Shown here piece after piece: positions 7,811 to 25,917 of a stretch of DNA of 25,917 bases. The stretch comes from a virus. Both the position numbers and the translations under genes were made by a program. Under the pieces are notes generated by a model. That model had not been told where the DNA came from, did not search any database, and saw only the letters and a program-made list of their open reading frames with translations. The stretch's first letter is position 1; the number at the start of each line of letters is the position of its first letter. The stretch is from positions 1 through 25,917 of IMG/VR virus record IMGVR_UViG_3300029258_003153; one strand, 5' to 3'.

Positions 7811-7811
7811 T

Positions 7812-8702: not shown

Positions 8703-8704
8703 AT

Positions 8705-10869: not shown

Positions 10870-10879
10870 TGCCCGCTTC

Positions 10880-10925: not shown

Positions 10926-10935
10926 CATGGTTTTC

Positions 10936-11964: not shown

Positions 11965-12091
11965 AATAGTCCTCCTTAAAAAATGGGGTTGATTTTTTTG
12001 TGCCTCTTGTTTCCTTAACCATTAAATTATCCAGGTGACAAAATAAAAGAGATTTTACATATTGAAGCCGTATCCCAGATTTTCGTCTCCT

Positions 12092-12442: not shown

Positions 12443-12506
12443 GTTTTACCGTCCTTTCTAGTAACAGTCCCCATCCGGGAAAGCTTCCTCCAAGCATTGA
12501 AAAAGT

Positions 12507-12746
12507 TTACCCCATGGTTTCTATGCTTACTGGTGCCGCACCACCGTTCCACTCGAAATCCTTCTTTACTTTTTCGAGAACTTGGTGACGTGCCTCGGTA
12601 AGTGAACCATAAGCCGAATATATTTCCGACTTCCACTTACGGGCATTAGGCAAAAAATACCGCACCGTAAATACCCAAGAACCAGTTCCTCTAGGATTTT
12701 TCCCATGGGTGCGAACGTAATCGTTATTAAAGTATGTGACATGCAT
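12507..12746 (-). CDS. Hypothetical small protein (79 aa)
   Basis: The start MHVTYFNNDYVRTHGKNPRG at 12746 is chosen because AGGAG lies 7 nt upstream; a longer reading would run back through the preceding gene. The protein looks like one beta-rich unit (GSWVFTVRYFLP) plus a helix (SLTEARHQVLEKVKKDFEW). That is a layout seen in short phage proteins that handle nucleic acid, but no family is recognised. Confidence 0.6.
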   Translation of the reverse strand: MHVTYFNNDYVRTHGKNPRGTGSWVFTVRYFLPNARKWKSEIYSAYGSLTEARHQVLEKVKKDFEWNGGAAPVSIETMG

Positions 12747-12756
12747 GACAATTCTC

Positions 12757-12948
12757 CTAATTGCTGAGGATTTTGCGAATGTTAGTGATTTCGTCTTCCA
12801 GTTCTTCCATTTCGTGGTAAGCCGCAGCCCATGGAAAATGATTTTTGGCAGCACGCTGATAAATGCGGCAAGCCTCAATCCATTCCGCCTGAGCCCTACT
12901 CAGGCGACCTTCCAGGGCATTAAAAGCCGCAGGAGGAATCCGGTTCAT
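12757..12948 (-). CDS. Small helical protein (63 aa)
   Basis: The start MNRIPPAAFNALEGRLSRAQ at 12948 follows AAGGGGG and overlaps the upstream stop by ATGA. The protein is a helix-rich hairpin, possibly a coiled coil (EMEELEDEITNIRKIL). Unknown function. Confidence 0.6.
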   Translation of the reverse strand: MNRIPPAAFNALEGRLSRAQAEWIEACRIYQRAAKNHFPWAAAYHEMEELEDEITNIRKILSN

Positions 12949-13148
12949 GCTGAACCCCCTTCGCAACCAGTGCATTCGATCCACATTTGATAAGTCCGAG
13001 GATGTTCTTTGCGGGCTTTTTCTGCCGCCATTTTTTCTACTTGCTTGTAGGCAAAATCCTTAGTGCCATGCGCAAACATCCGTCCAGCGTTCACCGTGCC
13101 TTGCGGCACATAAAAATGAACGTCAAATCCCCATTTTCCAGAACGCAT
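12945..13148 (-). CDS. Hypothetical small protein with CXXC end (67 aa)
   Basis: The start MRSGKWGFDVHFYVPQG at 13148 is fixed by the ribosome site GAAAGGAAGG; reading further upstream would translate the conserved leader. A beta-rich N-terminus (FDVHFYVP) is followed by a helix (YKQVEKMAAEKARKEHP) and a C-terminal CTGC. It resembles the neighbour at 12507-12746 in layout (FNNDYVRT...VFTVRYFLP...helix), so the two may be distant paralogues. Unknown function. Confidence 0.6.
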   Translation of the reverse strand: MRSGKWGFDVHFYVPQGTVNAGRMFAHGTKDFAYKQVEKMAAEKARKEHPRTYQMWIECTGCEGGSA

Positions 13149-13194
13149 CTCGCACCTTCCTTTCTTTCCCCTGACCTCGCCCCACACCATTTAT

Positions 13195-13222
13195 ATTATA
13201 CGGTTGTAGGCTATAAAGTCAA
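13195..13222 (-). promoter_or_regulatory. Cassette promoter (13.2 kb)
   Basis: -35 TTGACT (13217-13222), 16-nt spacer, -10 TATAAT (13195-13200). TTATA/TATAA ends of the operator-like 21-bp repeat (13196-13216) are kept. The TCTTCAAAT element lies at 13240-13248. The leader carries GGGGCGAGGTC and AAAGAAAGGAAG. Confidence 0.8.
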
Positions 13223-13281
13223 CAGGAAAAAAACAACTAATTTGAAGATTTTTTGACAAATTTCTTTCGTGGATAAAGATA

Positions 13282-13692
13282 TCAAATCCCCATTCGCATT
13301 TCATAAGCCTGTTCAGCCAGGTATTCAAGTTCCTCATCAATCCATGCTTGAATGCGTTCATTAGCATGCTCATCGAGGCATATAGGCACGACACGTTGAC
13401 CACCACATTCATTACATGGCTGATCATACATGCCGCTCATATAATCAGTGAAAAAATCGGGATCTTCCGCAAAATCCTCGGCGGACAGACCATTGCAATC
13501 GATGCTCGGATTAACGTGCGAGCCCTTGCCATTGCAAGTCGGGCAGACCTCGAATTTAATCGGCACGGTTGCCTCAACTTCCGAATCGTCCTCTTCATAA
13601 TACGTACATGTCGCTGTCATCTTGGCATCGTCAATGGAATTCCACCATCGACGAGCAGTAGCAGTCGTTCGATGATCAGTACAATAATTCAT
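13282..13692 (-). CDS. DnaJ-type zinc-finger protein (136 aa)
   Basis: Two CXXC pairs, CPTCNGKG (Cys50, Cys53) and CNECGG (Cys93, Cys96), match half of the DnaJ central zinc domain (CXXCXGXG). There is no J domain. The acidic stretch between them (EDFAEDPDFF) and the C-terminal helix are unlike chaperones. The start MNYCTDHRT at 13692 is selected by AAAGGAT six bases upstream. Zinc binding is likely; function is unknown. It is last in the 14.9-kb promoter's operon. Confidence 0.65.
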   Translation of the reverse strand: MNYCTDHRTTATARRWWNSIDDAKMTATCTYYEEDDSEVEATVPIKFEVCPTCNGKGSHVNPSIDCNGLSAEDFAEDPDFFTDYMSGMYDQPCNECGGQRVVPICLDEHANERIQAWIDEELEYLAEQAYEMRMGI

Positions 13693-13696
13693 TGTT

Positions 13697-13927
13697 TTAT
13701 CCTTTCGTATAGGACTCATCTGCAAAATGCGATGCCCACTTTACTGCTCTTTTTACGACCTCAGACTCTTCATCCAGGGCTTTGACACTTGTCACCTTTG
13801 TAATGCGGTGATTAGTCCCAGCCACTGGGAACACTGCGCACGCAATTCTTGGATCTTCATTGAGGCAACAGGCGACCAGTTTCGCGATCACTTCGTTACT
13901 GAAATATCCAAAATTAATCGTTTTCAT
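13697..13927 (-). CDS. Hypothetical small protein (76 aa)
   Basis: The start MKTINFGYFSNEVIAKLVAC at 13927 has AAGGAG eight bases upstream, inside the end of the HEXXH gene, giving a 14-nt overlap. The protein looks alpha/beta with VFPVAGTNHRITKVTS and a C-terminal helix. Not recognised. It is followed by the zinc-finger gene after 4 nt. Confidence 0.6.
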   Translation of the reverse strand: MKTINFGYFSNEVIAKLVACCLNEDPRIACAVFPVAGTNHRITKVTSVKALDEESEVVKRAVKWASHFADESYTKG

Positions 13928-14420
13928 CGTCTTTGCTCCTTCTTTTTGCTGCAAGAGACATTGGAATTATCTTGAGTTCTTCGGCAATTTGAACTCGCCG
14001 GCCATAGCGGCCACGGTATGTCTTATGCCTAGGCTTTTCAGCCAAATTCATAAGAAGTTTCGTGGGGGTATCTGCATAATCTTCCCACAATTGCAACATC
14101 AACCGACAGAAATCTGGCCCATGGGGTTCATAATGACCGGAATGCATGGCAATAGAATGTGCCACTTCGTGGAGCACCACTAGCTTGCACATTGCCCATG
14201 GTGGCAAGGTAATTCGAAAAAGACCACCACTAGCCGTTCGGCCTTTATCTCGGCCACGCCTCACTTCTGGACATCTGGCAAGACCACCGAAGTAATCCTT
14301 CCATACTTGCTTGACTAGCAATTCACATTCATGGAAAGACAAGGAATCATTACAACTTGGGAACTTCCTTCGAATGAAATCTTCCCATCGGTACACTGCC
14401 GTACGCTGAGAATCACGCAT
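13914..14420 (-). CDS. HEXXH metallopeptidase-like protein
   Basis: A 168-aa protein with the zinc motif HEVAH (84-88) and a third candidate ligand in HYEPHGPDF (His100), an arrangement seen in SprT-like and TIGR04338-type putative metallohydrolases. The N-terminal half (WEDFIRRKF...) is helical and the C-terminus is basic. SprT/Spartan-type proteases process DNA-crosslinked proteins, but the phage role is unknown. The start MRDSQRTAV at 14420 has AGGAAGG upstream; longer in-frame readings overlap the preceding gene. It overlaps the neighbours at 13697-13927 (14 nt) and 14413-14685 (8 nt). Confidence 0.7.
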   Translation of the reverse strand: MRDSQRTAVYRWEDFIRRKFPSCNDSLSFHECELLVKQVWKDYFGGLARCPEVRRGRDKGRTASGGLFRITLPPWAMCKLVVLHEVAHSIAMHSGHYEPHGPDFCRLMLQLWEDYADTPTKLLMNLAEKPRHKTYRGRYGRRVQIAEELKIIPMSLAAKRRSKDDEND

Positions 14421-14685
14421 TTTTGCATCCTTCCTCTGCCCACTTGATAAGATTTCGCATTGCTTCCAATTCTGCTTGTCGTTTCTCCCACCGGGCGATC
14501 CACCCGAATGTTTCCACCTTCCACATAAGACCTGGTGGCAAAGGATTTTCTCGCATGAAATCCAATGCCTCATCATGGGTCTTGAAAGACGTGTAAAATC
14601 GGAAATCCTCTGCCGGATTCAAATCGAGTGAAGCAGAAATTTCCGGATCTAGGCGGACTAGGTAAACTCGATATTTATCAGCCAT
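14413..14685 (-). CDS. Hypothetical protein (90 aa)
   Basis: A 90-aa protein: beta-rich N-terminus (KYRVYLVRLDPEIS), FYTSFKTHDEALDFMREN (about 30-47), then a helical, charged C-terminus. The start at 14685 has GAAAGGAAAG upstream. It begins 13 nt after the 57-aa gene. Not recognised. Confidence 0.65.
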   Translation of the reverse strand: MADKYRVYLVRLDPEISASLDLNPAEDFRFYTSFKTHDEALDFMRENPLPPGLMWKVETFGWIARWEKRQAELEAMRNLIKWAEEGCKNA

Positions 14686-14698
14686 GGAATCTTTCCTT

Positions 14699-14872
14699 TC
14701 AACTGTTGTCCCATATCTTATGGGCCGCTTTAGCGAACTTTATCAACGCCCGGCTTTCGGCCATATTGGCCGGCATTGGGCACGCGGAATAAGCGTACGC
14801 AAGATCTTGACCAGCTATCCAACGCCTCCAGAACTTGCGCATTTCTTGGAACCATCCGAAAAACCTTTTCAT
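14699..14872 (-). CDS. Small basic protein (57 aa)
   Basis: Starts MKRFFGWFQEMRKFWRRW at 14872 behind AGAAAGGACGG; an upstream reading would enter the leader. It is Trp/Phe/Arg-rich and amphipathic, then helical (ALIKFAKAAHKIWDNS). It may associate with membrane or host protein. It is the first gene of the 14.9-kb promoter's operon. Unknown function. Confidence 0.6.
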   Translation of the reverse strand: MKRFFGWFQEMRKFWRRWIAGQDLAYAYSACPMPANMAESRALIKFAKAAHKIWDNS

Positions 14873-14912
14873 CTCACACCGTCCTTTCTTCCTCCCGCCC
14901 CGCACCATTATT

Positions 14913-14942
14913 ATTATAGTGTAGAACACTATAAAAAGTCAA
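14913..14942 (-). promoter_or_regulatory. Cassette promoter with perfect operator palindrome (14.9 kb)
   Basis: -35 TTGACT (14937-14942), 18-nt spacer, -10 TATAAT (14913-14918). Overlapping the -10 is a perfect inverted repeat with 8-bp arms TTATAGTG and CACTATAA separated by 5 bp (14914-14934), the best operator candidate in the window. The TCTTCAAAT element is at 14959-14967. Confidence 0.85.
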
Positions 14943-14943
14943 T

Positions 14944-14983
14944 GGGTAAAACAGATTAATTTGAAGATTTTTCGGTTTTACCC
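14944..14983. other. Inverted repeat at the end of the OB-like gene
   Basis: Perfect 9-bp arms GGGTAAAAC and GTTTTACCC are separated by 22 bp, directly at the stop of the OB-like gene and next to the 14.9-kb -35 box. It may serve as a weak terminator or as a protein-binding site. Confidence 0.4.
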
Positions 14984-15918
14984 AAGAATTCGGCTTTGGA
15001 AGGCCGCTTGAAGAACCCGAATTTCGGGTCGTTATCACTTGGCGTGAATGTTGCCGTGAATCGGATTCTATCGCCATGGGCCAGTCCTCTTGTTCTGGGC
15101 CAAGTCTTGTCAGGACTTCCGGGCATTGGCACTTCCTCAGTCACTGTACCGATGTCGGTTGGCACTGTTCCCCAGCAGACCCATCCATCATCGGTTTTGA
15201 CCGTCATTTTCAAAGTCCGTCCGAAATTGCTGTCGTGGATTTTAGTCTTGAGCACCATGCCGAAAACTTCCTGGCGTCCGGTGGGACAAGGTGCTGCAGC
15301 GGCTTTCTCAGCCGCCCACTTGGCTTCCCGCTCAGGTCGAGTGTTTATCCGGTTGATCAGAATGCGCAGGAATTTTTCCTGTTTTTCACTCATATGACCA
15401 TACCGCACGATATTGTGCATGATGTCCGTAACGGTGTATTCGTCTGCCGAGGCATCATTAGTGCCATGCTCCGAATATTTTTTGTAAATTTCCCATGCCA
15501 GAGGCATTCCCTTCTCTTCCAACATGTGCTTGGCCTTGGCCCTGCCGGCTTTGGCTTCCCGCCAATTTTGAACGCTTATCCGCAGGTGGCGGAAAGCTTC
15601 CGGCTGCTGCATGTCCATCTTCGCGGCGCAATCCTCGCCGGTTCTTATGTAAGTATTGGTTTCGGGGTGATAAAACACTGCCAGATAAAGTGCATGCGCA
15701 CCACAAACATGACAGGTGCCACCATGCTCATGCCCGGAATACTTGCCACCCGTCATTTCCATGTGACGGCGCACGTTCTTCATGGCCTCGGCATTTGCCA
15801 TTACTCCCATGAAATCGCCCACATTCCGACCGCCAATGGCAACGCAATCCACGAACTCGTAATTTTCGGGATGAATGGCCGAAGGCCGGTGAATGTCAGT
15901 TCTTGTCAAAGCAACCAT
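14956..15918 (-). CDS. Zn-knuckle plus OB-like phage protein (320 aa)
   Basis: An early-region protein of unknown function. Residues 60-100 contain HEHGGTCHVCGAH and GEDC, a Cys/His cluster (Cys69, Cys72, Cys97, His63/65) likely to bind zinc. A helical middle (115-205) is Lys/Glu-rich. The C-terminal 215-315 looks like an OB-fold strand set (EVFGMVLKTKIHDSNFG, LKMTVKTDDGWVCWGTVP, GDRIRFTATFTP). An OB domain plus zinc suggests single-stranded nucleic-acid binding. The start at 15918 is supported by a GAAAGAAAGGAAG site and its own promoter. The gene is GC-rich. A longer reading exists on the opposite strand but has none of these signals. Confidence 0.6.
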   Translation of the reverse strand: MVALTRTDIHRPSAIHPENYEFVDCVAIGGRNVGDFMGVMANAEAMKNVRRHMEMTGGKYSGHEHGGTCHVCGAHALYLAVFYHPETNTYIRTGEDCAAKMDMQQPEAFRHLRISVQNWREAKAGRAKAKHMLEEKGMPLAWEIYKKYSEHGTNDASADEYTVTDIMHNIVRYGHMSEKQEKFLRILINRINTRPEREAKWAAEKAAAAPCPTGRQEVFGMVLKTKIHDSNFGRTLKMTVKTDDGWVCWGTVPTDIGTVTEEVPMPGSPDKTWPRTRGLAHGDRIRFTATFTPSDNDPKFGFFKRPSKAEFLGKTEKSSN

Positions 15919-15963
15919 GTCTCACTTCCTTTCTTTCCCCTGACCTCGCCCCGCACCATTTAT

Positions 15964-15993
15964 ATTATAGGGTATTTCACTATAAAAAGTCAA
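15964..15993 (-). promoter_or_regulatory. Cassette promoter (15.97 kb)
   Basis: -35 TTGACT (15988-15993), 18-nt spacer, -10 TATAAT (15964-15969). The operator-like repeat 15965-15985 matches the 14.9-kb palindrome with one mismatch between arms. The leader is almost identical to those at 6.7 and 13.2 kb. A short inverted repeat with arms AAATCT and AGATTT (16006-16021) precedes it, perhaps a weak end signal for the XRE gene. Confidence 0.8.
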
Positions 15994-16032
15994 GTGAAAA
16001 ATAAGAAATCTGAAGAGATTTTGCAAAATAAT

Positions 16033-16275
16033 TTAGATAGATTCTGTCCGCTCTAATTCAAATCTATCCACCCCGAATAATGCGCACATTTTATCTAAAT
16101 GAACTCGAGTAGGAATCTGGTGTCCTGTCTCCCAAGAAGCAATAGTTACTTGGTGAACACCCATGAGTATCGAGAATTGGGACTGAGTAACGCCAAGCTT
16201 ATTCGCCCTCAAATCGGCGATGCGTTTTCCCATTAGAATTTTGAGCTCTTCAAATGATGCTAATTTGTTCTTCAT
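16033..16275 (-). CDS. XRE-family helix-turn-helix regulator
   Basis: An 80-aa protein with a Cro/C1-type HTH: RIADLRANKLGVTQSQFS (18-35), then MGVHQVTIASWETGHQIP (38-55), typical of XRE DNA-binding domains, and a short tail with no dimerisation domain. It is the last gene of the 25.9-16.0 kb run (start overlaps the glycosyltransferase stop in TAATG) and lies directly before the 15.97-kb promoter. It is the only recognisable repressor in the window, so it is the first candidate to bind the operator-like repeats. That link is inferred. Confidence 0.85.
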   Translation of the reverse strand: MKNKLASFEELKILMGKRIADLRANKLGVTQSQFSILMGVHQVTIASWETGHQIPTRVHLDKMCALFGVDRFELERTESI

Positions 16276-16970
16276 TAATAAGACCTTTCCGAATGCCGAA
16301 CTCTGTATACTCCTGGTAATTTAATAGGCAAGATTTTCCCCATGGTAAGACAATATTTTCGATAAGCTATGTCGCATCTAGTAAGCCAAGACATTATTGG
16401 ATTCGGTTCCACCCATGCTGTATCCTTCAAATATCCGTGCTCTCTAGCAAAGTCCCCTTGCACAATTTGTACACCACCAATGGCTTTCCAATACCTTTTT
16501 ACCCTAAAATCAGCAGGATCAATGATATCAACAGGAATATTTCCTTGTTCGGCCGCAAGCAACATTTTGTCCCCATTTTCATGTGATATGCTAAATTGAA
16601 TCCATTCTGGGTAAATCATAGCAACATCCGCCGGCCAATCGAATTTAGCGAGTGTATCTAGTACTGATCCAAGGAAACAATAATCAGCATCACAAAACCA
16701 AACGATATCACATTCAGTTTGTAAAGCCGCTTTATTTCTGCCTAAAGCCCGGTGACTGAACTCATCATCTTCTAAATATAAAGGATGCACAAATGAATGC
16801 TTATTTATTTCCTCCATTACTAATTCATCCGAAGCCGAGCAAGGAACAGTTATGCGCACAAAATTTTCTGGTAAATACCTTAAAATCGATGCTATTTGCA
16901 ACCTCAGACAGTAAGCATAATGAGGCAACTTCTTAGCATAGCAATGCGTAATAATATCAATGCTCTTCAT
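16275..16970 (-). CDS. GT-A glycosyltransferase (DAD motif)
   Basis: A 231-aa protein with a Rossmann-like start (MKSIDIITHCYAKKLPHYAY), the nucleotide-sugar/metal motif FCDADYCF (92-99) and a WKAIGGVQIVQGDFA segment (about 161-175) as in GT-A enzymes. Donor and acceptor are unknown. It overlaps the KdsB-like gene by 14 nt and the XRE gene by 1 nt. It may use a product of this cluster, but that cannot be read from the sequence. Confidence 0.75.
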   Translation of the reverse strand: MKSIDIITHCYAKKLPHYAYCLRLQIASILRYLPENFVRITVPCSASDELVMEEINKHSFVHPLYLEDDEFSHRALGRNKAALQTECDIVWFCDADYCFLGSVLDTLAKFDWPADVAMIYPEWIQFSISHENGDKMLLAAEQGNIPVDIIDPADFRVKRYWKAIGGVQIVQGDFAREHGYLKDTAWVEPNPIMSWLTRCDIAYRKYCLTMGKILPIKLPGVYRVRHSERSY

Positions 16971-17703
16971 TTAGTAATTCCCTATACTTTAATAAGTCTT
17001 CCTCCGTATTAACTCCCAGGGGCATTCTGGGAATATTAATTGAATGAATCTTAAAGCCGTTTTCTAACCATGTTAATTGCTCCAGACTATATGACTTGCT
17101 CTTCTCAGTAGGACGATAACTTGCCAATTTACTTAATATTTTGACTGGAAAACAATATATTCCGCAATGATATTTTTGTCCCACCATGGGCAATCTCGAG
17201 AACCACATGCAATGACTAGTAGTTTCACTAGTGACTACCTTCGTTATATTTGGATTTTCTTTATCTTCCCCTTTTGGTGGTCTATCAGCAACAATAGTAC
17301 CAATTTCATTCTTCATTCTTGTTTGATGAATTAGTAAATCAATTGCGGTAAAAGAAATCAATGGTTCGTCGACTTGCCAATTAACTACGATATCATATTG
17401 TTTTCCCATGGACATTATTTTACTAATGGCATGGGAGCACCGCACGGTTCCATTAGGAATATCCCCTTCTATTTTAAGAAAATTCATTCTATGAACATTA
17501 CAGTAATCTTGAATTTCTGGTGAATCCGAAATTACCATTACTTTAGAAGCAAGGGAACCTTGCGCCCGCTCATACGTTCTTTGCAGCAAAGTCTTTCCTT
17601 CACAATCTAATAATGCTTTCCTATGTAACCTAGAACTTTCAATGCGACATGGAATCATTATAATACTTCTATGGAAAATTGAATTTATCTCAGAAATATT
17701 CAT
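16957..17703 (-). CDS. kdsB: KdsB-like CMP-ulosonate (CMP-Kdo) cytidylyltransferase
   Basis: KdsB activates 3-deoxy-D-manno-octulosonate with CTP to CMP-Kdo. The 248-aa protein, the size of E. coli KdsB, has IPCRIESSRLHRKALLDCEG (17-36), matching the family's IPAR.S.RLPGKPL.D..G. It also has NWQVDEP (108-114; family NVQGDEP), HCGIYCF (179-185), LEQLTWLENG (208-217) and GVNTEEDL (230-237). The start ATG at 17703 is preferred over a GTG eight codons upstream; it has GAGGAG at a rather long spacing. It overlaps the sulfotransferase-like gene by 14 nt. There is no KdsA or KdsD here, so Kdo itself must come from the host. Other 2-keto-3-deoxy sugars could be the true substrate. Confidence 0.85.
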   Translation of the reverse strand: MNISEINSIFHRSIIMIPCRIESSRLHRKALLDCEGKTLLQRTYERAQGSLASKVMVISDSPEIQDYCNVHRMNFLKIEGDIPNGTVRCSHAISKIMSMGKQYDIVVNWQVDEPLISFTAIDLLIHQTRMKNEIGTIVADRPPKGEDKENPNITKVVTSETTSHCMWFSRLPMVGQKYHCGIYCFPVKILSKLASYRPTEKSKSYSLEQLTWLENGFKIHSINIPRMPLGVNTEEDLLKYRELLNEEH

Positions 17704-18220
17704 AATTAATAAAGATCTCCTCTTCACATTCTAGAATGTCTAAACGTAAACGCCTAGGCAATTGTCTTGTTATAGTTGACTTTGGATTATTCCTTTTTAT
17801 ATTGTCCAAGAGCACCGGGGAAATCCCAAATAAATCCGCAACTTCTATAAAAGACCATGGAAGATCCTCGAATCGGTGGGTAATATCTGCCACATATTTT
17901 CGGTGTAGTTCCACAAGAGCCCCAGGACAGTTATTAAGGTAAGATTCTATAAAACTTTCATAATCATTATAATTTTTAGAATAAAAAGGCAGCATATGAC
18001 CATTTAATTCTTCTCCAGCTTCGAATATTGCCGTCAGCCAATTGTATGGATTTCGAATTAAAGTAAACCGCAAAGCGTTAGATTGTTCCGTGCTCTCCCA
18101 TGGTGTAAAAGCCTTCTCATGAAAAGCCGGCCCTAGACCAGCTAATTGACAGGCTTGGACGTACCAATCAGCACCAGTTAATGGTGGACTCGCTAACTGT
18201 ATCTGTCCGTAATCGATCAT
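17690..18220 (-). CDS. Sulfotransferase-like protein (divergent, PAPS-type)
   Basis: A 176-aa protein. SPPLTGADW (11-19) fits the 5'-phosphosulfate loop (PxxTGxxW) and LIRNPYNWLTA (54-64) fits the 3'-phosphate loop (RxPxxxxxS-like, but with Thr at the last place). It is shorter than typical sulfotransferases, and the spacing between loops is short. It could transfer sulfate from PAPS, or be a degenerate relative. Its start at 18220 (GGGAG upstream) lies 53 nt inside the preceding methyltransferase gene. Moderate confidence in family, low in activity. Confidence 0.55.
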   Translation of the reverse strand: MIDYGQIQLASPPLTGADWYVQACQLAGLGPAFHEKAFTPWESTEQSNALRFTLIRNPYNWLTAIFEAGEELNGHMLPFYSKNYNDYESFIESYLNNCPGALVELHRKYVADITHRFEDLPWSFIEVADLFGISPVLLDNIKRNNPKSTITRQLPRRLRLDILECEEEIFINYEYF

Positions 18221-18788
18221 CTTCGTTCTCCCGTTTTACGAATAACCAGACAAGATGACCGCCAGTGGTAATTTCGTAATTATGTTGCTTAGCAAATTTA
18301 TCGACAGTAGGTTTGACTTGAAATTTTCCTTTTCTATCACCTACTCCATTATAATCATGCCCACTTACCAAACCACCTGGCTTGACTTTTGGATACCAAT
18401 TGTTAAGATCTTTCCATACGTCAGCAGCAGAATGACCAGCATCAATATAAACGAAATCCAAGGAAGCATCTGGGATATGTTGCGCCGCGATACTAGAATC
18501 ACTAATCATTAAGAATTTGCGTTCCCAGTACTCCACTGTTCGAGTATGGGCTTCACATAAAGCAACATTGATTTTTTCTTGTTCCCAAGATCCATTCGTA
18601 AATTCGGGATAGTAAAAATCAATCATATATAGAAATAAAGAAGGAAATTTATTCAATAAGTATTGAGATAGTTCCCCCCGCAATACACCTACCTCTGCCC
18701 CTATTAATTGTGCATCTTGAGAAAATAAATTTTCTATCCATTTTGCCAGGATTCTAAATGAGCCCTTGTTTATAATTTTCATGGTCAT
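18168..18788 (-). CDS. Class I SAM methyltransferase (Methyltransf_24-like), paralogue A
   Basis: A 206-aa protein. Motif I AEVGVLRG (31-38), then SLDFVYIDAGHS (109-120) and KPGGLVSGHDY (136-146), the signature of Methyltransf_24-type enzymes, which often methylate sugars in antibiotic or polysaccharide pathways. The start at 18788 is chosen because it makes an ATGA overlap with paralogue B; the longer frame begins at a TTG. About 20 C-terminal residues beyond the paralogue's end are read over the start of the sulfotransferase-like gene. Closely similar to 18785-19333, pointing to duplication. Confidence 0.8.
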   Translation of the reverse strand: MTMKIINKGSFRILAKWIENLFSQDAQLIGAEVGVLRGELSQYLLNKFPSLFLYMIDFYYPEFTNGSWEQEKINVALCEAHTRTVEYWERKFLMISDSSIAAQHIPDASLDFVYIDAGHSAADVWKDLNNWYPKVKPGGLVSGHDYNGVGDRKGKFQVKPTVDKFAKQHNYEITTGGHLVWLFVKRENEDDRLRTDTVSESTINWC

Positions 18789-19333
18789 CTTTTCTGAAAT
18801 CCCCAATTAGTTAAATTATGAGTGAAAGAATATTCATGCTTTTTTGTCCATTCATTTATTGCTTCTGTGCAGCCAGGAAATTTTTTATACCTGGCTAAAT
18901 AATCATGTCCACCTACGAACCCACCTGAACGAACTTTAGGATACCAATGGTCTAAATCTTCTAGAACAGATTGTTTAGAATGATCGGCATCGATATAAAC
19001 AAAATCTAATACCCCATCTGGGATTAAGTGAACAACTTGTGTTGATTTTCCTACCAATATAATTCTGCGCCTATGAAAAGAAACTGTATTTTCGTAGGCG
19101 TCTTTCATTATACCGAGCATTTTTTGCTGATTCCATGGTCGTCTTTGTGGGAGCCAGGCATCAACCATATACAATTCCATATTAGGGAAATTAGATAGAA
19201 GCTTATTAGATAGCAATCCTTTCCATATTCCAACTTCACACCCAAATTTAGGATCTGGACAGATGCTTTTAATCATGTTGACAGCAATTTCTCGCATCTT
19301 TTCGAAATGGGCTTCTATCCTAGAATTTGCCAT
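18785..19333 (-). CDS. Class I SAM methyltransferase (Methyltransf_24-like), paralogue B
   Basis: A 182-aa protein. GCEVGIWKG (31-39) is motif I; LDFVYIDADHS (109-119) and SGGFVGGHDY (136-145) repeat the signature of paralogue A. The order MELYMVDAW and LYMIDFYY in the two paralogues confirms homology. It starts with a 1-nt TAATG overlap with the upstream methyltransferase. Substrate unknown; a sugar hydroxyl in this cluster is plausible. Confidence 0.8.
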   Translation of the reverse strand: MANSRIEAHFEKMREIAVNMIKSICPDPKFGCEVGIWKGLLSNKLLSNFPNMELYMVDAWLPQRRPWNQQKMLGIMKDAYENTVSFHRRRIILVGKSTQVVHLIPDGVLDFVYIDADHSKQSVLEDLDHWYPKVRSGGFVGGHDYLARYKKFPGCTEAINEWTKKHEYSFTHNLTNWGFQKR

Positions 19334-19959
19334 TACCGTACCTCAAAGCATTCAACAAAATTATGCTTGAAAACACGATCAACACGATCATGATAAACTT
19401 CCAAGAATTTTGTCAATCCTTCTAAAACATGATTATCTTTTTTAATACGATTATCTACGTCATCAAAGATCATCCACCCACCCTTCTTCATGAGAGTAAG
19501 CACATTTTTTGCATCATCAAAAACAGCATAATCATGGTGATTTCCGTCAATCATGCAAATATCAACAGAATTTTTCTTAATTCCAGCATACCCCATTCTT
19601 TTCCGCATCCTAGGGAATATTTCGGCACTAACAGCACGCACCAATTGACATTTCCCAGAATGTTGCCATTCTTTAGTGTTATAGAATGCCCGATTTTTTA
19701 CAGCGAGCATGTCCTCTTCACTCAATTTCGACGTCATTAACCATGGGTCAACCCCCACCGCACGGCTGTCTGGATGAGTAAGAACATACCGCAACATCCA
19801 GCACAAAGATTGTGCTTCGAATACTCCTAATTCCAAATAAGTAGCCGGAACATCTTGCCACCTGGGCAAGATAAAATTACGGAATGTAGGATAGTTTCTA
19901 TTTAGAAACCAATTTTTAGTAAATTTGAAATCCCCTTCTAATCCTAATTCTCTAACCAT
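19333..19959 (-). CDS. Class I SAM methyltransferase
   Basis: A 208-aa protein with YLELGVFEAQS (41-51; SAM motif I), VGVDPW (68-73), SVDICMIDGNHHDYAVF (131-147) and KKGGWMIFDDVDN (158-170). It is related to the two Methyltransf_24-like paralogues but clearly more distant, with a shorter C-terminus. It starts 3 nt after the 298-aa glycosyltransferase. Three neighbouring genes of this type suggest a multiply methylated product. Confidence 0.8.
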   Translation of the reverse strand: MVRELGLEGDFKFTKNWFLNRNYPTFRNFILPRWQDVPATYLELGVFEAQSLCWMLRYVLTHPDSRAVGVDPWLMTSKLSEEDMLAVKNRAFYNTKEWQHSGKCQLVRAVSAEIFPRMRKRMGYAGIKKNSVDICMIDGNHHDYAVFDDAKNVLTLMKKGGWMIFDDVDNRIKKDNHVLEGLTKFLEVYHDRVDRVFKHNFVECFEVR

Positions 19960-19962
19960 GAT

Positions 19963-20859
19963 TTATCCTCGATATCGTTTCTTTATTGATAAGAATTCTT
20001 CTAGTTTATCCATCCACCTATTTTGAATAAGACTAATCCATTCGGTTACATTGCCCGTATTTTCGTCTAAACACTTTTGAAAAATAGGCCACCACCAATC
20101 ATAGCCTACTCTAGACTTATCAATACGCACATTACTATCACCATGATAATGCTTTACAACGACATCTTTTTCAGGTAGTATCTTACTTATAAATTTCGGA
20201 CTGGTATTGAATTCCCCTTGCTCTCCCAACATGACGAATAATTTGCTAGGGGCAAATAATGGCATAAGCGTGTGCAAAACCACTTCATCAGCAATAAATA
20301 ATTTCCGAGCCACGTTCGTCCACTCCGACCAGACGGGCAAAACTGGGGTGTCGGGTCTACAAGCCCATACACCACCGTTTACAGACGGCCATGGGTTAAG
20401 TAACAGTTCTTCCACTACCTTTTGGTGGATGCGCTTGTATTGGCGCAAATCTTTTAACCTATTTGCAATGATACCTGTATTAGTTGTCCAATTATTAAAT
20501 CTGGTACCAGCAAAACCTGTTTTCTCAGCAGCATCGAATAACTCAACTATTCTAGTGGAATGAATAGTAGTATCAGCGTCTAAATATAGAAGAATATCAC
20601 GTTCTCCACATTGGTCTTTCGCCAATTCTATTTTATCCATAAATTGAGCATTTTTTAACCGATGCGCCGGTTCCCGGGACTTTACTTGGATATTGAGATT
20701 TTTATCTTCAGCAATTAACTTAACAATATCTAAAGATTCCTTCCAAGCAAATACTACCACTTCACCATGATATTGCTGGCGCAATGTCTTTAGTGAACAC
20801 AAGAGGTAGGGCAAATGAGCGGGGCCGCTCATTAAATAGAAAATTCTTTTACTTAACAT
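19963..20859 (-). CDS. GT-A glycosyltransferase (DAD motif, GT8-like)
   Basis: A 298-aa protein. KRIFYLMSGPAHLPYLLCSL at the N-terminus, the donor/metal motif LLYLDADTT (90-98) and WPSVNGGVWACRP (about 157-169), where GG helps hold the acceptor site, fit GT8-like GT-A enzymes. A late HYHGD (about 243-247) may be a metal-binding histidine segment as in GT8. It overlaps the FkbM gene by 11 nt. Confidence 0.75.
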   Translation of the reverse strand: MLSKRIFYLMSGPAHLPYLLCSLKTLRQQYHGEVVVFAWKESLDIVKLIAEDKNLNIQVKSREPAHRLKNAQFMDKIELAKDQCGERDILLYLDADTTIHSTRIVELFDAAEKTGFAGTRFNNWTTNTGIIANRLKDLRQYKRIHQKVVEELLLNPWPSVNGGVWACRPDTPVLPVWSEWTNVARKLFIADEVVLHTLMPLFAPSKLFVMLGEQGEFNTSPKFISKILPEKDVVVKHYHGDSNVRIDKSRVGYDWWWPIFQKCLDENTGNVTEWISLIQNRWMDKLEEFLSIKKRYRG

Positions 20860-21532
20860 TTTGTTCTTCCTCGAACTCTTTTACCGTATACGGACAGATG
20901 CAATATTGAGATTGAAATATTGAAGGTTTAGTATATAAGGCATCATATTGTCCACCCTTCATTGTATGAACCCATGAGCGGTAGAAACCTGCTTGCCTTA
21001 ATTTATCATGGACTTCCCCTGGTGATGGCCAAGTAGGGCTAGGTGGCTTTGGTGTCATTTCCACATTAACAGCGGTAGTATATTCTAAAATCCTAGTAGC
21101 ACCATGGAGAACTGCAAGTTCACTGCCTTCGCAATCCAACCATAGCATAACTTCTTTGCCAGTTAGATCACCAATTTCATTGTCTAAAGTACTTGCTTCT
21201 ACTTTTTGAATATTATGACGGACTTCCTCAGGAAATTCTAATACCGAAGAACCATCTTTATGATTAGGTTTTACATAAAGATCTATTACCCCATGTTTAT
21301 CCGCTATTGCCTTATTAATCAAAGTTCCAGGATAATTTGATATCTTGTTATAAGAAGTAGTGCAGGCCTCAAAACCAATGAATTCACAATCCGGCCATTC
21401 TTCTTTCATTACATCCACTTCTTGGTGGTAAAATCCTATTCCAACTTGAATAACACAAGTAGGCTGCCAGCCTAGCCGAGCCACTTCCAATGCGGCGGAA
21501 ACACCACTACGACGTAAAAATCTACTCACCAT
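20849..21532 (-). CDS. FkbM family methyltransferase
   Basis: A 227-aa SAM enzyme. VIQVGIGFYHQEV (27-39) is motif I; FIGFEA (51-56) and VEASTLDNEI (111-120) follow; WLDCEGSELAVLHGA (131-145) is the FkbM hallmark (family I-K-x-D-x-E-G). FkbM-type enzymes methylate hydroxyls of sugars and polyketides. It is placed between a GT-A and a sulfotransferase, supporting glycan modification. Confidence 0.85.
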   Translation of the reverse strand: MVSRFLRRSGVSAALEVARLGWQPTCVIQVGIGFYHQEVDVMKEEWPDCEFIGFEACTTSYNKISNYPGTLINKAIADKHGVIDLYVKPNHKDGSSVLEFPEEVRHNIQKVEASTLDNEIGDLTGKEVMLWLDCEGSELAVLHGATRILEYTTAVNVEMTPKPPSPTWPSPGEVHDKLRQAGFYRSWVHTMKGGQYDALYTKPSIFQSQYCICPYTVKEFEEEQNVK

Positions 21533-21541
21533 TATATCTTC

Positions 21542-22177
21542 CTAAAAAGTATACTTGAAAGTATCTATATCTTCTTCATAAAATTTGGTAACAGCATCTT
21601 TGATTTCTTTAGTATAGTATTCTCGGTACGGTTTATGAACCGACACATTCACATGAGGCAACGGCTCAAATTCGAGACCTACATTTTCAAGCAATTTCGC
21701 CCAATCTTCATTCACATTCTCGAACTTACCTATAAAATCAATATAAGGGCGCAGCCATGTTACCTGAGGCAAAATGGCTTGAAAATGACTTTTGGAAGTC
21801 GACATTTTCAATACGCCTAAATATTCATGGTCAATGACCACTCTTTGTATAAAAGTTTTCCAACTTTTCAAACAAGGATTAGATACTCTATCCCGAGATA
21901 AACGAATACGACAAAAGAAATGATAACAAGAAACTAATCTATCCCATGGATTTCGCACGAATGCAAACTTATAAGAATCTTTCCACCAATTCTTATCGAT
22001 ATTCGTTCTTCTGAGCATGAAATCAATATCCGGAGAACCAATGAAAACGATGTGATTCATCTTTTCAAAATCAAAATCCTCATCCATAATATGCTTGCCA
22101 CCACGAAGACGCAAAAGCGTTTGCATAGAAGTGCCAGCCGTTTTAGGAACGTGTAAAAAAACTAAATTCTTTTTCAT
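21542..22177 (-). CDS. Sulfotransferase family 2-like protein
   Basis: A 211-aa protein with FLHVPKTAGTSM (7-18), the 5'-phosphosulfate binding loop, FAFVRNPWDRLVS (71-83), the 3'-phosphate binding loop, and FIGKFENV (about 148-155), all standard for carbohydrate sulfotransferases using PAPS. Length is normal for the bacterial members. It should sulfate a carbohydrate (or possibly tyrosine or protein glycan) in the cluster's product. PAPS has to come from the host. It is ATGA-coupled to the preceding GT-A gene. Confidence 0.85.
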   Translation of the reverse strand: MKKNLVFLHVPKTAGTSMQTLLRLRGGKHIMDEDFDFEKMNHIVFIGSPDIDFMLRRTNIDKNWWKDSYKFAFVRNPWDRLVSCYHFFCRIRLSRDRVSNPCLKSWKTFIQRVVIDHEYLGVLKMSTSKSHFQAILPQVTWLRPYIDFIGKFENVNEDWAKLLENVGLEFEPLPHVNVSVHKPYREYYTKEIKDAVTKFYEEDIDTFKYTF

Positions 22178-22953
22178 ACTAATGCTTTAGCAACTGCTTT
22201 TCGTATGTTTTCCATGGTTGTCCAATGTTCCCACCCTCTAGTTTTCATTTGTGGCCGCTTAATTTCCATGCCTAATCGTGTCGCAATGTACCACATATAC
22301 CCATCTTGAGAAGGAACAGGCAAGAAGCCTTCCCCACATGATTCTTCCGCAAATCTAGAGCAATCTTTAGTAAAATTTGTATTAAAAAGTCCACACCAAC
22401 TAATTATGCGCTTATGAGACAATTTGTCAGCGTCTGGATCTATTGGTAAGCGCAATGGCTCAGAATTGAATTTTAAGTGTGCACACCCTTCCGCCCACCT
22501 ATCCAATAATTGCATCTGGTTCTTGGGTCGAGTAAATCCCCATGGCTGAGCAATTATTGCCGGCGTGCCATTAAACCAATCTTCAGAAATCCAATCATCT
22601 TGTCCATTAGCAACCGTATCCACATCTAACTTGAGCCAATAATCAGTCTTGACATGCATGGCTGGAACATGTACAAATCCCGCCAACATTTTATACCTTT
22701 GTGGATTACCAAACTTTTCTTCTGTTAATCTAGGATAAGGTTTATCCCCTGGTGGCCAAGGTATGCAAGTTAAATTCGGATGGTCAATGGCCTCAAATAT
22801 CTCATAAGAATGGAGACTAAATCTATCAAAGAATATCAACATCGGATGCTTTAGTAACGTCGACTTATGGCGTTTCCAAGTAGGCCATACCAACTTTAGT
22901 TGCTCAAGATGCTTTCTGTCAACAGCACAAACTAATGTATAACTAGGAATCAT
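22174..22953 (-). CDS. Putative GT-A glycosyltransferase (DVD motif)
   Basis: A 259-aa protein. The N-terminal MIPSYTLVCAVDRKHLEQ and the DxD-like LKLDVDTV (107-114) suggest a GT-A fold; GFTRPKNQMQLLDRW is also seen. I do not recognise a specific family. It is ATGA-coupled to the cupin before it and to the sulfotransferase after it. Role as a transferase is probable; donor and acceptor unknown. Confidence 0.6.
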   Translation of the reverse strand: MIPSYTLVCAVDRKHLEQLKLVWPTWKRHKSTLLKHPMLIFFDRFSLHSYEIFEAIDHPNLTCIPWPPGDKPYPRLTEEKFGNPQRYKMLAGFVHVPAMHVKTDYWLKLDVDTVANGQDDWISEDWFNGTPAIIAQPWGFTRPKNQMQLLDRWAEGCAHLKFNSEPLRLPIDPDADKLSHKRIISWCGLFNTNFTKDCSRFAEESCGEGFLPVPSQDGYMWYIATRLGMEIKRPQMKTRGWEHWTTMENIRKAVAKALV

Positions 22954-23321
22954 TCTGGGGCTCCTATAAAATTTTCACCACCCACTGACCCATGGCGGTC
23001 TATGTCATTAGGATCTAATTCTACCCAATATACTTCCAATGCACATCCATCAGTTAAGGCTTCGAATCTATGCTCAATACCTGGTGGGATATCACATATA
23101 TCCCCTTCCTCTAAAATAGTCTTATCAACTGTTTTATTCACACACTGAGAAATGCGCAATACACCATTCAACACTACAAAACGATTGAATTTAGAATTAT
23201 GAGTATGTTGACTGCAATACCCACCCTTATTGAAATGAATTAAATGACATTCAACATTATTACCATGAAATATGGGACGGGTAGTTCCCCATATCTTTCC
23301 TTGCGTTGCTCCGAAAAGCAT
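22950..23321 (-). CDS. Cupin-fold protein
   Basis: A 123-aa single-domain cupin. Motif 1 is GGYCSQHTHNSKFNRF (33-48; His39, His41), motif 2 is GDICDIPPGIEHRF (73-86; His84). With three histidines it probably binds a metal. In glycan clusters such cupins act as sugar epimerases/isomerases or as small-molecule binders; the exact activity is not readable. It overlaps the following GT gene by ATGA. Confidence 0.75.
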   Translation of the reverse strand: MLFGATQGKIWGTTRPIFHGNNVECHLIHFNKGGYCSQHTHNSKFNRFVVLNGVLRISQCVNKTVDKTILEEGDICDIPPGIEHRFEALTDGCALEVYWVELDPNDIDRHGSVGGENFIGAPE

Positions 23322-23332
23322 TGTCCTTCTCC

Positions 23333-24340
23333 CTATTTTTCGTACCAGCCAGCAAGATCAGGTTTCTCATCTATTCCCATTTTTGCTTCTTTCAAAGCAT
23401 CCTCGAATGGAACATAAGGGAACGCACGTAAACCACTGCTCTGATAACAATTGTAAATCGTTAAGTTAAATTTCTTGAATGTTCCATTTTCCATCATCTC
23501 ACATAACCAACCATTCACATTAGCAAACTGTCGATTATTATTAGCGGAAGCACCTTCATTGCGTGCTTGCTCGAAAGAATACCCTAATTTCGGGGTCATG
23601 TAAAAATCCACCCCCACTAAGTAAATTTGACGAATGCCTAGATGATAAAGTAGTCTAATTCCTAATAGAAATGTGCAAACTGTCTTAGGCTGCTTATGTC
23701 TATCAGCTCCCATCTTGTGGTTGCCCCAACAAGCACCATCTTCCAAAAAGAAGAACTCATTAGGTATTAGTTCACTTATGCGCTTAAATCCCCATACATT
23801 AGGCATTTGATGAGTTCGTCTTTCCAATTGTTCAAATGTCCCATCTTTTTTCTTGCGCCTAAGAATGCCTCGGTTACCTGTTAATTTCGGGGTAGGAATA
23901 AATTTCATAATACCTGGATCTAACCAGATATTATGGTGAAACTTCAAGGGGGGATCGGAGCAGACAAAAGAATTAGGACGAAAACGTGGATGAGCTCCCA
24001 CATTATTAATAGTCATTGTCCAGATGCCCCGGTCGTTGAGTCGTTCTAATGGCAAGTCGTTTGCTGATGGTCCACCACCGATTAGAAATGCACTTTTGCC
24101 TTCCAACAAATTGCGCAAAGATTCAGTAACTTGCTTTTCTTTATCTGTGATATAAAGGTTATCTGACCATTTCTTAGAAAATTTATCATCTTCTAGAAGC
24201 AATTTGTGCTTGCACCACTTACAGGCATTTCCAGGCCCCATTCGCCTTGCTTTGGTCTTTGTGCATTCTTGGAAAATCCTACACTTGTATTTACCATTGC
24301 CTAATCCATCACCTAAGTAAACACATTCATTTCTATCCAT
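23333..24340 (-). CDS. DUF115/Maf-like or GT42-like glycosyltransferase candidate with Cys-rich N-terminus
   Basis: A 335-aa protein. Residues 6-43 hold five cysteines (6, 20, 26, 40, 43), a likely zinc-binding head. The core has AFLIGGGPSANDLPLERL (84-101), INNVG (111-115), CSDPP and LGIRQIYLVGVDFY (234-247). This pattern occurs in DUF115/MptE-like proteins, including Maf transferases that put CMP-activated nonulosonic acids on flagellin Ser/Thr, and in CstII-type (GT42) sialyltransferases (GNGPS near the N-terminus). Placement near a KdsB homologue and a Ser-rich protein fits transfer of a CMP-sugar. Family match is moderate; donor and acceptor are inferred. Confidence 0.55.
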   Translation of the reverse strand: MDRNECVYLGDGLGNGKYKCRIFQECTKTKARRMGPGNACKWCKHKLLLEDDKFSKKWSDNLYITDKEKQVTESLRNLLEGKSAFLIGGGPSANDLPLERLNDRGIWTMTINNVGAHPRFRPNSFVCSDPPLKFHHNIWLDPGIMKFIPTPKLTGNRGILRRKKKDGTFEQLERRTHQMPNVWGFKRISELIPNEFFFLEDGACWGNHKMGADRHKQPKTVCTFLLGIRLLYHLGIRQIYLVGVDFYMTPKLGYSFEQARNEGASANNNRQFANVNGWLCEMMENGTFKKFNLTIYNCYQSSGLRAFPYVPFEDALKEAKMGIDEKPDLAGWYEK

Positions 24341-24353
24341 CCCTGTCGTTCTC

Positions 24354-24845
24354 CTATTGTTTTCCCCATAGCAGGCGGGGACAATACGAAGTCGCCAACC
24401 GTGCTTTATGCATAATTTTTGCTTTTGACTTAGACGTTATATAACATCGGCATACGGGACATTGTATAGTCTCCACCTTATAATCCCCAGTGCAATCACG
24501 ACAAATTTTTTCGATTTTTTCGATTTCTTCATCTGTTCTTAATGGAAAGCCAGCCTTAGCCCATCTGAAAATTTCTCCTATGCAATCGAATACCATTTTT
24601 GGGGTCCATTCCAAAATGCGCATGGAAATCCCCATTAAATCATAATCTAATTTCAAAGGTTCTGCATGAGGAAGATTATTTTTATCCTCATGTTCCAATT
24701 GCATGTTATTCAATAAGTTTTCTATTCGCTTATTGTAATCATTGCACTTACGAATTATTTTGAATGGTGCTACAAATTCTTTGCATGGATCACATATTGG
24801 ACAATACCACTTATCTTTTTCAAATTCTTCCATTTTGCAAAGCAA
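24354..24845 (-). CDS. Cys-rich (zinc-binding) protein, TTG start
   Basis: A 163-aa protein with two Cys clusters: Cys15, 18, 21, 34 (CPICDPC) and Cys115, 118, 129, 132, 134, 155 (ICRDC, QCPVCRC, SYCP). The C-terminal part resembles small Cys-rich phage proteins with a CP..W end. The TTG at 24843-24845 is preferred because GGGAGG, in the end of the upstream gene, is 7 nt before it; the first ATG four codons later would be too far (19 nt). It may be a zinc scaffold working with the next gene, whose N-terminus is Cys-rich too. No enzyme motif seen. Confidence 0.65.
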   Translation of the reverse strand: MLCKMEEFEKDKWYCPICDPCKEFVAPFKIIRKCNDYNKRIENLLNNMQLEHEDKNNLPHAEPLKLDYDLMGISMRILEWTPKMVFDCIGEIFRWAKAGFPLRTDEEIEKIEKICRDCTGDYKVETIQCPVCRCYITSKSKAKIMHKARLATSYCPRLLWGKQ

Positions 24846-24848
24846 TTT

Positions 24849-25917
24849 TTATCCTCCCGATGATTCTGATTCATATGATGAATATTCACTATCCGCTGGA
24901 GAAGTTGTAATAGTGCATGCCAATGTCGATATAAGTTCTCCATTAACAGTAGAATATGAAAATCCCCTTGGCTGACCATTTGGATAAAGGGGGAATATAG
25001 ATTGTGCGTATCCCAATTCTTCACCATCTAATAAATAATCTCGCCACCGCCATTTATAATAGTAAGAACCCAATGGTTCTTGAGAATCATCCTCACTTAA
25101 ATTAACAATCCATTCCCATGTCGCCGGGGATTCATATCCAAGTATCCATGTACTAGGATGATAATGGGGTTGCAAAGCATAACCTTCTGACTTCCATACA
25201 TATGGGTTCTCTGGATCTGGATCAGGTCCAAATTGACTTTCTTCACTGGAAGTTTCCGGGTTATCTCCTTGAAATGAATATAAAAACCATTCAAATTTCA
25301 AATAATATTCAGTAGGTTGATTACCACATCTATTTCCGAATATGCAATAAGGCGCACCACAATCTTCATCGATTATCGTAGGTGGTTCATTATGCGCCGG
25401 TGTAATTTTCCATGTTTCATAAATCCCTTCGTAATCTATATCATTAGGCAATGAATGATAAGTCGGATCTGCGGCATAATTCGGCCAACCCCCAGTCCAA
25501 GTATAATATCTTTCTGCTTTTCTATCTTGTGTGTAATCTTGGGTGATATTAATCTCCCAATCTCGACCATCGATTAATTCCGATAGTAATTCACTAGAAG
25601 AGGATATCGATGATGAGGAAGATATCGATGAAGACGATGAAGATGATGTTGATGATAATGAACTGGAAGATTGTGAAGATAATGATGTAGAAGATTGTGA
25701 AGATAATGATGTAGAAGATTGTGAAGATTCAGAAGAATAAGCACTACTGGAACTAATGGAAATACTACTTCTACTACTCATAGAAGTCGATGAAGATGAT
25801 AATGAACTAATACTACTTTGACTAGAAGAACTGGAAGAACTGGAAGAATTGGAAGAACTGGAAGAACTACTAGTAGATATAGATGATAAAGAAGATGAAG
25901 AAATAGACTGAGAACTA
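24849..25917 (-). CDS. Ser-rich protein, 3' part (N-terminus beyond window)
   Basis: The frame stays open to the right edge, so only the C-terminal 355 residues are seen. An internal ATG at 25781 is not a convincing start because the Ser-rich reading continues upstream of it. About the first 110 residues are almost only Ser with Thr, Gln, Ile and Leu; the rest (about 245 aa) is a folded-looking, Trp/Tyr-rich domain (e.g. YYTWTGGWPNYAADP, TWEWIVNLSEDDSQ) ending YESESSGG. The Ser tract suggests a flexible, possibly O-glycosylated stalk, and the domain suggests a fibre or adhesin tip. It precedes a long glycosyltransferase/sulfotransferase cluster, so it is the natural candidate for decoration. 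Not matched to a named family. Confidence 0.65.
   Translation of the reverse strand, partial: SSQSISSSSLSSISTSSSSSSSNSSSSSSSSSQSSISSLSSSSTSMSSRSSISISSSSAYSSESSQSSTSLSSQSSTSLSSQSSSSLSSTSSSSSSSISSSSSISSSSELLSELIDGRDWEINITQDYTQDRKAERYYTWTGGWPNYAADPTYHSLPNDIDYEGIYETWKITPAHNEPPTIIDEDCGAPYCIFGNRCGNQPTEYYLKFEWFLYSFQGDNPETSSEESQFGPDPDPENPYVWKSEGYALQPHYHPSTWILGYESPATWEWIVNLSEDDSQEPLGSYYYKWRWRDYLLDGEELGYAQSIFPLYPNGQPRGFSYSTVNGELISTLACTITTSPADSEYSSYESESSGG
25666..25729. repeat. 24-bp in-frame tandem repeat in the Ser-rich gene
   Basis: Two full units (25666-25689 and 25690-25713) and a partial third, coding SSQSSTSL on the minus strand. Unlike the iterons, the period keeps the frame, so it expands the peptide and probably arises by slippage. 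Confidence 0.75.

Follow-up and report, generated by a model that had tools for sequence, protein, structure and literature searches.

A viral sugar-enzyme locus linked to Ser-rich virion proteins: a candidate system for O-glycosylation of phage particles

Introduction

What is the target of a set of sugar-modifying enzymes that a virus encodes directly behind a Ser-rich protein? This question is raised by a minus-strand operon in the IMG/VR virus record IMGVR_UViG_3300029258_003153, the entire 25,917 bases of which constitute the window analyzed here. The operon runs leftwards from the right-hand end of the window and consists of a Ser-rich gene, truncated at the contig end, and 14 following genes. 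They encode a zinc-ribbon protein, a GT42/Maf-like glycosyltransferase (MAF), a cupin, three further glycosyltransferases (GTa, GTb, and GTc), a Sulfotransfer_2 protein, four methyltransferases, a weakly sulfotransferase-like protein (STx), a KdsB homologue, and a helix-turn-helix (HTH) protein. The intergenic gaps from the Ser-rich gene through the HTH gene range from −53 to +13 bases, and thus the contiguous row of genes described in a first-pass annotation of this DNA does exist. That annotation had proposed a phage fibre as the acceptor of the sugars. Glycosylation of phage virions has so far been documented in few phages. The results presented below indicate that the locus probably encodes a system for O-glycosylation, the acceptors being Ser-rich proteins of the phage's own virion and the glycan being capped with methyl and sulfate groups.

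Results

Ser tracts of virion proteins

The Ser-rich gene (24849–25916, on the minus strand like all operon genes below) encodes a Ser tract of 108 amino acids, 74% of which are Ser, and a C-terminal domain of 248 amino acids, for which no homologue was found, including by tblastn against 50,697 phage records. The tract is encoded by a mixture of five Ser codons from both codon families (TCT, AGT, TCA, TCC, and TCG), which ruled out a low-complexity DNA artefact or repeat. As no single synonymous change leads from TCN to AGY codons, the mixture shows that Ser has been kept at the protein level, and not as a DNA repeat. The gene lies where relatives have Ser-tailed fibre genes, i.e., between the distal tail protein and MAF, and its product was classified as a fibre-type virion protein.

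The relatives belong to a divergent lineage of uncultured phages, the MAF proteins of which are 42–56% identical to that of the window. In the nearest relatives the same cluster has an almost identical gene order. In the relatives, the genes for prohead protease, major capsid protein, and a tail-terminator-type protein are followed by those for a Ser-tailed protein of about 250 amino acids, a tail tube candidate of about 143 amino acids, two small genes, the tape measure (PF20155, phrog_9959), a distal-tail-type protein of about 310 amino acids, and a fibre-type protein. Then follow MAF, cupin, GTa, FkbM, GTb, methyltransferases, STx, KdsB, and GTc, and thereafter replication genes of the window type. 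Tape measure, capsid, protease, and Mu-F-like proteins were assigned with Pfam, while tail tube, terminator, distal tail, and fibre were named by position and size.

The Ser-tailed tail protein, encoded beside the tail tube gene, consists of a beta-sandwich of about 190 amino acids and a C-terminal Ser tail. The model of the globular domain is confident, and a fold search against the PDB gave no significant match. In 49 distinct complete proteins, the tails have lengths of 23–222 amino acids (median 73) and a median Ser content of 78%. All six Ser codons are used in the tails of the relatives, with AGY shares of 21–78%. Ser tails were also found on a head protein with a domain of about 120 amino acids, the gene of which immediately precedes those for the prohead protease (PF04586) and the capsid protein (PF05065) (L157, L190, L208, and L229, also L286 and L287). 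The fibre-type protein of the relatives often contains a Ser tract; in three lineage members (L242, L250, and L274) the fibre-type gene lacks it and the tail protein has it. The Ser-rich candidates are several virion proteins and not the fibre alone, which the first-pass annotation had proposed as acceptor.

Co-occurrence of Ser tails and the locus

The coupling between Ser tails and the locus was quantified with a sample that is independent of MAF, i.e., 57 viral loci drawn with an alignment of the tail tube candidate. A Ser tract, defined as at least 60% Ser over 30 amino acids, was present in 55 of these loci; as several of them are near-copies, the effective number is smaller. The other two are contigs of about 4 kb that start at the tube gene. 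In a comparison set of 50 other phage loci (711 kb, recruited by DUF932), not a single Ser tract was found. The set of 36 loci drawn with MAF gave the same picture as the tail-tube-drawn set.

Of 49 records scanned with hidden Markov models, 39 contain MAF and 42 the Ser-tailed tail protein; 32 have both, and in one of these (G064) the MAF is a head-region copy. In the remaining 17 records (10 plus 7), which contain only one of the two, the contig stops before the place of the other, MAF being located about 5–12 kb behind. The first-pass annotation had asked whether the Ser-rich gene and the cluster stay associated in related phages. They do in all records of sufficient length: a counterexample, i.e., a long-enough record with MAF or the Ser-tailed tail protein alone, was not present among the 49 records.

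Some unrelated phages contain remote MAF relatives (about 29–40% identity), lack the Ser-tailed tail protein, and have an absent or remote tail-tube relative. A Ser tract within about 10 kb was found in 6 of the 10 cases with GTa or KdsB nearby, compared with 0 of 16 without (Fisher test, p = 9e-4; the test was post hoc and the phages are not independent, so that it is supporting evidence only). One example is L159, in which Ser-rich proteins of 1845 and 210 amino acids are followed by KdsB, MAF, cupin, and GTa; further examples are L160, L166, and L168. A long row of such proteins was observed in a 296-kb jumbo phage (G026; locus L284, positions 1–19999), where about nine consecutive Ser-rich proteins, several of which share a WYDASDTDTITDSGG-type domain, are encoded near a remote MAF and several methyltransferase and glycosyltransferase genes.

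The MAF glycosyltransferase

MAF (23333–24340) is a protein with a Cys-rich N-terminus. A profile search led to the GT42 sialyltransferases CstII and CstI (E about 1e-4), and every match under 0.1 was a GT42 enzyme. The AlphaFold2 model (pLDDT 94) had CstII as the top Foldseek match with a probability of 1.00 and an E-value of 1e-4, the TM-scores being only 0.35–0.48. The window protein by itself also matches the sialyltransferase phrog_4603 (E = 1e-5). The first-pass assignment of MAF as Maf- or GT42-like is thus supported for GT42 by the profile and, less clearly, by the predicted fold. Residues N31 and Y162 of CstII, which together with H188 we take to be catalytic or donor-binding, appear to correspond to the invariant MAF residues N112 and Y254, the N31/N112 correspondence being set by position in the motif and not by the printed alignment. 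The Maf/DUF115 family (PF01973) matches 14 of 42 MAF members, with a best E-value of 2e-9 and a value of 0.008 for the window copy.

In the MAF tree, the window protein belongs to a clade of 14 rows with support values of 98/98, and the whole lineage has values of 100/97. Three genomes (G030, G032, and G039, with loci L158, L157, and L170, respectively) have a second MAF in the head-gene region, and these copies group as sister to those of the tail module. The head-region copy of L157 is located close to Ser-tailed proteins.

Further enzymes of the locus

The conservation of the other genes was determined for twenty loci in which the sequence continues for 9.5 kb or more behind MAF. GTa, GTb, and GTc are present in all 20 clusters, Methyltransf_24 in 18, KdsB and the cupin in 17 each, STx in 16, FkbM in 15, and Sulfotransfer_2 in 2. 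The predicted capping genes differ from phage to phage.

The KdsB homologue (16957–17727), a predicted CMP-ulosonate synthetase, has the family-level similarity to be expected of such an enzyme (PF02348, CTP_transf_3, E = 3e-24; KdsB in the PDB, E = 3e-21). It matches the NCBIfam 3-deoxy-D-manno-octulosonic acid (Kdo) cytidylyltransferase with E = 2e-46, yet it stays under the curated cut-off: the equivalog thresholds are not reached, with 103 versus 155 bits for TIGR00466 and 158 versus 193 bits for NF003952. The QxDEP motif is kept in the family. The KdsB/MAF pair of donor synthesis and transfer that had been suggested is thus partly supported, by the frequency of the KdsB homologue in the well-covered clusters and the GT42-like character of MAF, but not by the curated KdsB assignment. 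The single-domain cupin (22950–23321; PF07883, E = 1e-8) is WbuC-like (TIGR04366, E = 5e-4, under the cut-off) and a possible sugar isomerase or epimerase.

All three glycosyltransferases have a DxD motif, and their Pfam matches are weak or absent. GTa (22174–22953), with DVD at position 110, has neither a Pfam nor a PDB match; it is 45–56% identical to its relatives, and this conservation together with the DxD motif makes it a candidate glycosyltransferase. GTb (19963–20859), with DAD at 94, is a candidate of the GT8/glycogenin type by a weak profile match. For GTc (16275–16970), also with DAD at 94, the family profile points weakly to the GT2 type, with GT2 enzymes and chondroitin synthase matched at E-values from 1e-4 to 1e-2. 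The number of three glycosyltransferases given earlier is therefore retained, for GTb and GTc by motif and weak profile matches and for GTa by its motif and conservation. The cupin, the KdsB homologue, and the four methyltransferases were likewise borne out by family matches. The latter are one FkbM-family enzyme (20849–21532; PF05050, E = 2e-9) and three Methyltransf_24 enzymes (PF13578) at 19333–19959 (E = 3e-13), 18785–19333 (E = 2e-13), and 18168–18806 (E = 8e-12).

Two sulfotransferase-like proteins had been annotated, and only one of them was corroborated. The Sulfotransfer_2 protein ST2 (21542–22177) has both the family profile (PF03567, E = 3e-17; phrog_3347, E = 4e-26) and motifs for the binding of 3′-phosphoadenosine-5′-phosphosulfate (PAPS), i.e., the loop-like HVPKTAGTS and VRNPWDRLVS. 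For STx (17690–18220), sulfotransferase-like by motif only, neither the window copy nor any of 20 family members had a Pfam match, and a PDB search yielded no sulfotransferase and nothing convincing. The PAPS-loop-like sequence PPRTGTTW is present in many relatives and altered to PPLTGADW in the window copy. The cluster of the nearest relative, L143, contains accessory Sulfotransfer_4 (5928–6524, E = 1e-24) and GSCFA (9399–10244, E = 4e-43) genes.

The two small proteins of the operon are a Cys-rich, zinc-ribbon-like protein without family match (24354–24845) and the HTH_3 (Cro/CI-type) regulator encoded by the last gene (16033–16275; PF01381, E = 2e-9). The former is found near the same place in several relatives (L064, with 33% identity, also L247 and L249), and the latter also closes the clusters of L149 and L247. 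In a promoter and terminator scan of the operon, promoter-like sites were not more common than in shuffled sequences.

Retrieval of relatives and genomic setting

Single-sequence scans of IMG/VR with the window MAF and KdsB found nothing, and the same was true for tblastn searches of the 50,697 phage records with the window MAF, GTa, and GTb as well as with capsid, Ser-tailed protein, and MAF of the relatives. The cluster proteins of the window as single queries gave remote sulfotransferase matches only, and the matches of an initial motif pattern (YLVGVDFY) were all due to chance. The relatives were retrieved with a degenerate DNA pattern for the motif LGxxx[IV]YLxGxDF, which yielded 83 stretches. 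Nine of these loci encode MAF relatives with 44–55% identity, and about 45 more have 28–40%.

A relative of the lineage's tail tube was not found in bacterial genome contigs, so that the lineage itself could be tied neither to a prophage nor to a host. Assemblies of Pirellulaceae and Verrucomicrobia contain remote MAF relatives, as do long genome contigs from Planctomycetota, the phylum of the Pirellulaceae. This is only a hint that the hosts are perhaps Planctomycetota or Verrucomicrobiota. Two prophage-like loci of a genome from the same phylum as the Pirellulaceae match (G454) encode Gly/Ser-rich proteins with RYYLYIPVWAT or a near variant; they follow the remote MAF in L302 and a fibre-type gene in L303.

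Bases 1–16,000 of the window contain replication and regulation genes, i.e., for an SNF2 helicase, a DnaB-like protein, a Toprim primase, and sigma-region-2, DUF932, and QueD/QueE-type proteins. At 56–2519 (minus strand), a QueE-like radical S-adenosylmethionine protein, QueD (6-pyruvoyltetrahydropterin synthase family, E = 4e-33), and a methyltransferase/DUF6884-like fusion are encoded in a row, which hints at a possible 7-deazaguanine (PreQ0-type) modification of the DNA. An additional GT2-like protein with a weak PF00535 match is encoded in the replication region, outside the cluster (6734–7465, minus strand). A sigma-70 region 2 protein (10218–10760, minus strand), a possible phage sigma factor, is kept behind the cluster in relatives.

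Discussion

From the gene content, the position in the tail module, the co-occurrence with Ser tails, and the GT42-type profile and predicted fold of MAF, all of which were computed here, we infer the following course of glycosylation. The KdsB homologue would make a CMP-ulosonate with Kdo or a Kdo-like acid, the carbon skeleton of which would come from the host. MAF would transfer the ulosonate either directly to Ser hydroxyls or onto a first sugar. The glycan would be completed by GTa, GTb, and GTc and capped by the methyltransferases and sulfotransferase(s). Its acceptors would be three kinds of Ser tail, i.e., those of the fibre, of the tail protein encoded next to the tube, and of the head protein encoded next to the capsid gene, and the outcome would be a mucin-like coat on the particle, which might serve shielding, adhesion, or solubility. 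A bolder version, which we regard as doubtful, is that the whole lineage is mucin-coated, with the poly-Ser tails of head, tail, and fibre O-linked directly to a Kdo-like acid by the GT42/Maf-type enzyme using phage-made CMP-ulosonate, and then extended, methylated, and sulfated.

The main rival explanation is that the locus remodels a surface glycan of the host, either the lipopolysaccharide core or the capsule, e.g., to block superinfection or to protect progeny, and that the proximity to tail genes is incidental. KdsB, WbuC-like cupins, FkbM, and sulfotransferases, all represented in the locus, are indeed common in surface-polysaccharide loci. However, every lineage relative seen has the locus within its tail module, the exceptions to the co-occurrence with Ser tails are all explained by contig ends, and the linkage recurs in unrelated phages. 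Moreover, the family scans of the window proteins matched no polymerase or flippase family in the cluster. Host-surface modification would leave the coupling to Ser tails unexplained, and we consider it unlikely. The Ser tracts themselves could be unmodified flexible bristles or linkers, with the enzymes acting on another component of virion or host. Marine cellulolytic bacteria do have poly-Ser linkers for which no modification is known. Yet in the head and tail proteins nothing follows the Ser tails, which form the C-terminus and hence link no domains. Moreover, virion proteins of three kinds have Ser tails, and these tails accompany the enzymes, which makes bare bristles quite improbable.

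Modification of DNA bases against restriction is a frequent task of phage glycosyltransferases, and the QueD/QueE-type genes of the window hint at 7-deazaguanine DNA. But these genes belong to the replication region at a distance of about 15 kb, the family matches of the cluster include neither a base-hydroxylating nor a thymidylate-synthase-like gene, and in relatives the locus comes after tail genes and not after DNA-metabolism genes. A role of the locus in DNA modification is thus very unlikely.

Several points weigh against the proposed O-glycosylation of virion proteins. The locus and the gene for the Ser-tailed protein may simply both belong to the core gene set of the lineage. In unrelated phages, wider flanks, which were obtained for some records only, added one more case to each class and shifted the p value slightly. 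The similarity of MAF to GT42 is remote, resides chiefly in the C-terminal half, and has modest TM-scores; the catalytic His of CstII (H188) has no conserved counterpart in MAF. The pattern used to retrieve part of the MAF set contained a CstII-like motif, so that the agreement in this stretch is partly circular and the profile match was aided by it to some extent. In the KdsB homologue, the Asp of the VDT motif, presumably the second Mg-binding Asp, is Asn in the window copy and most relatives. The N-terminal part of the Ser-rich protein and the tail genes further upstream are absent from the window because the contig ends there, and the lineage, which has no cultured member, is known from sequence alone.

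Searches of the open-access literature found no account of phage virion proteins with Ser tails that are accompanied by a locus of this kind, which does not imply its absence elsewhere, and the proposed virus-encoded mucin-like coat would be new for these phages. If the proposed glycosylation is correct, phages would regularly use elaborate sugar coats, as a glycan locus of core genes and poly-Ser proteins would be found throughout a lineage and recur in unrelated phages. The locus would also provide small enzymes as candidates for Ser glycosylation, with poly-Ser as a simple acceptor, and the chemistry and purpose of such coats would become directly testable.

Comparison with known systems

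Each half of the proposal has a precedent, because in E. coli a Maf protein of Clostridium botulinum can attach Kdo directly to Ser/Thr (PMC11339370), and the C-termini of mycobacteriophage capsid and tail-tube proteins are glycosylated (Freeman et al. 2023, as cited in PMC12619734). With the Maf flagellin glycosyltransferases (DUF115, PF01973; PMC11339370), the phage system would share a PF01973-related enzyme, a predicted CMP-ulosonate donor, and, as acceptor, Ser/Thr of a protein from a helical filament on the surface. It differs in that the acceptor would be the poly-Ser tails of phage proteins, and in that the phage MAF has 335 amino acids with a Cys-rich N-terminus and a fold search that favours GT42 over Maf. 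With the GT42 enzymes CstII and CstI, MAF shares the profile match and the apparent, invariant counterparts of N31 and Y162, and CstII is its top match in the fold search with modest TM-scores, whereas the identity is only about 13–15% and the catalytic His has no conserved counterpart.

The layout of a Ser-rich protein gene beside a set of glycosyltransferases is also known from serine-rich repeat adhesin loci, in which the glycosyltransferases O-glycosylate the neighbouring surface protein and the accessory ones are variable (PMC6973325). In contrast to these, family scans of the cluster matched neither SecA2/SecY2 nor GtfA/GtfB, the proteins are structural phage proteins and not secreted adhesins, and MAF and KdsB would take the place of the priming with N-acetylglucosamine.

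In mycobacteriophages, as far as the account in PMC12619734 goes, phage-encoded glycosyltransferases are thought to act on the C-termini of structural proteins (tail tube and capsid), and the same principle is proposed here from the genes alone. Homology to cultured phages was not detectable for MAF, GTa, GTb, and the Ser-tailed proteins. Virion glycosylation of mycobacteriophages involves few glycosyltransferase genes, whereas the locus described here has about 12 genes, with KdsB, MAF, and methyl- and sulfotransferases, and is accompanied by long, nearly pure Ser tails on several virion proteins.

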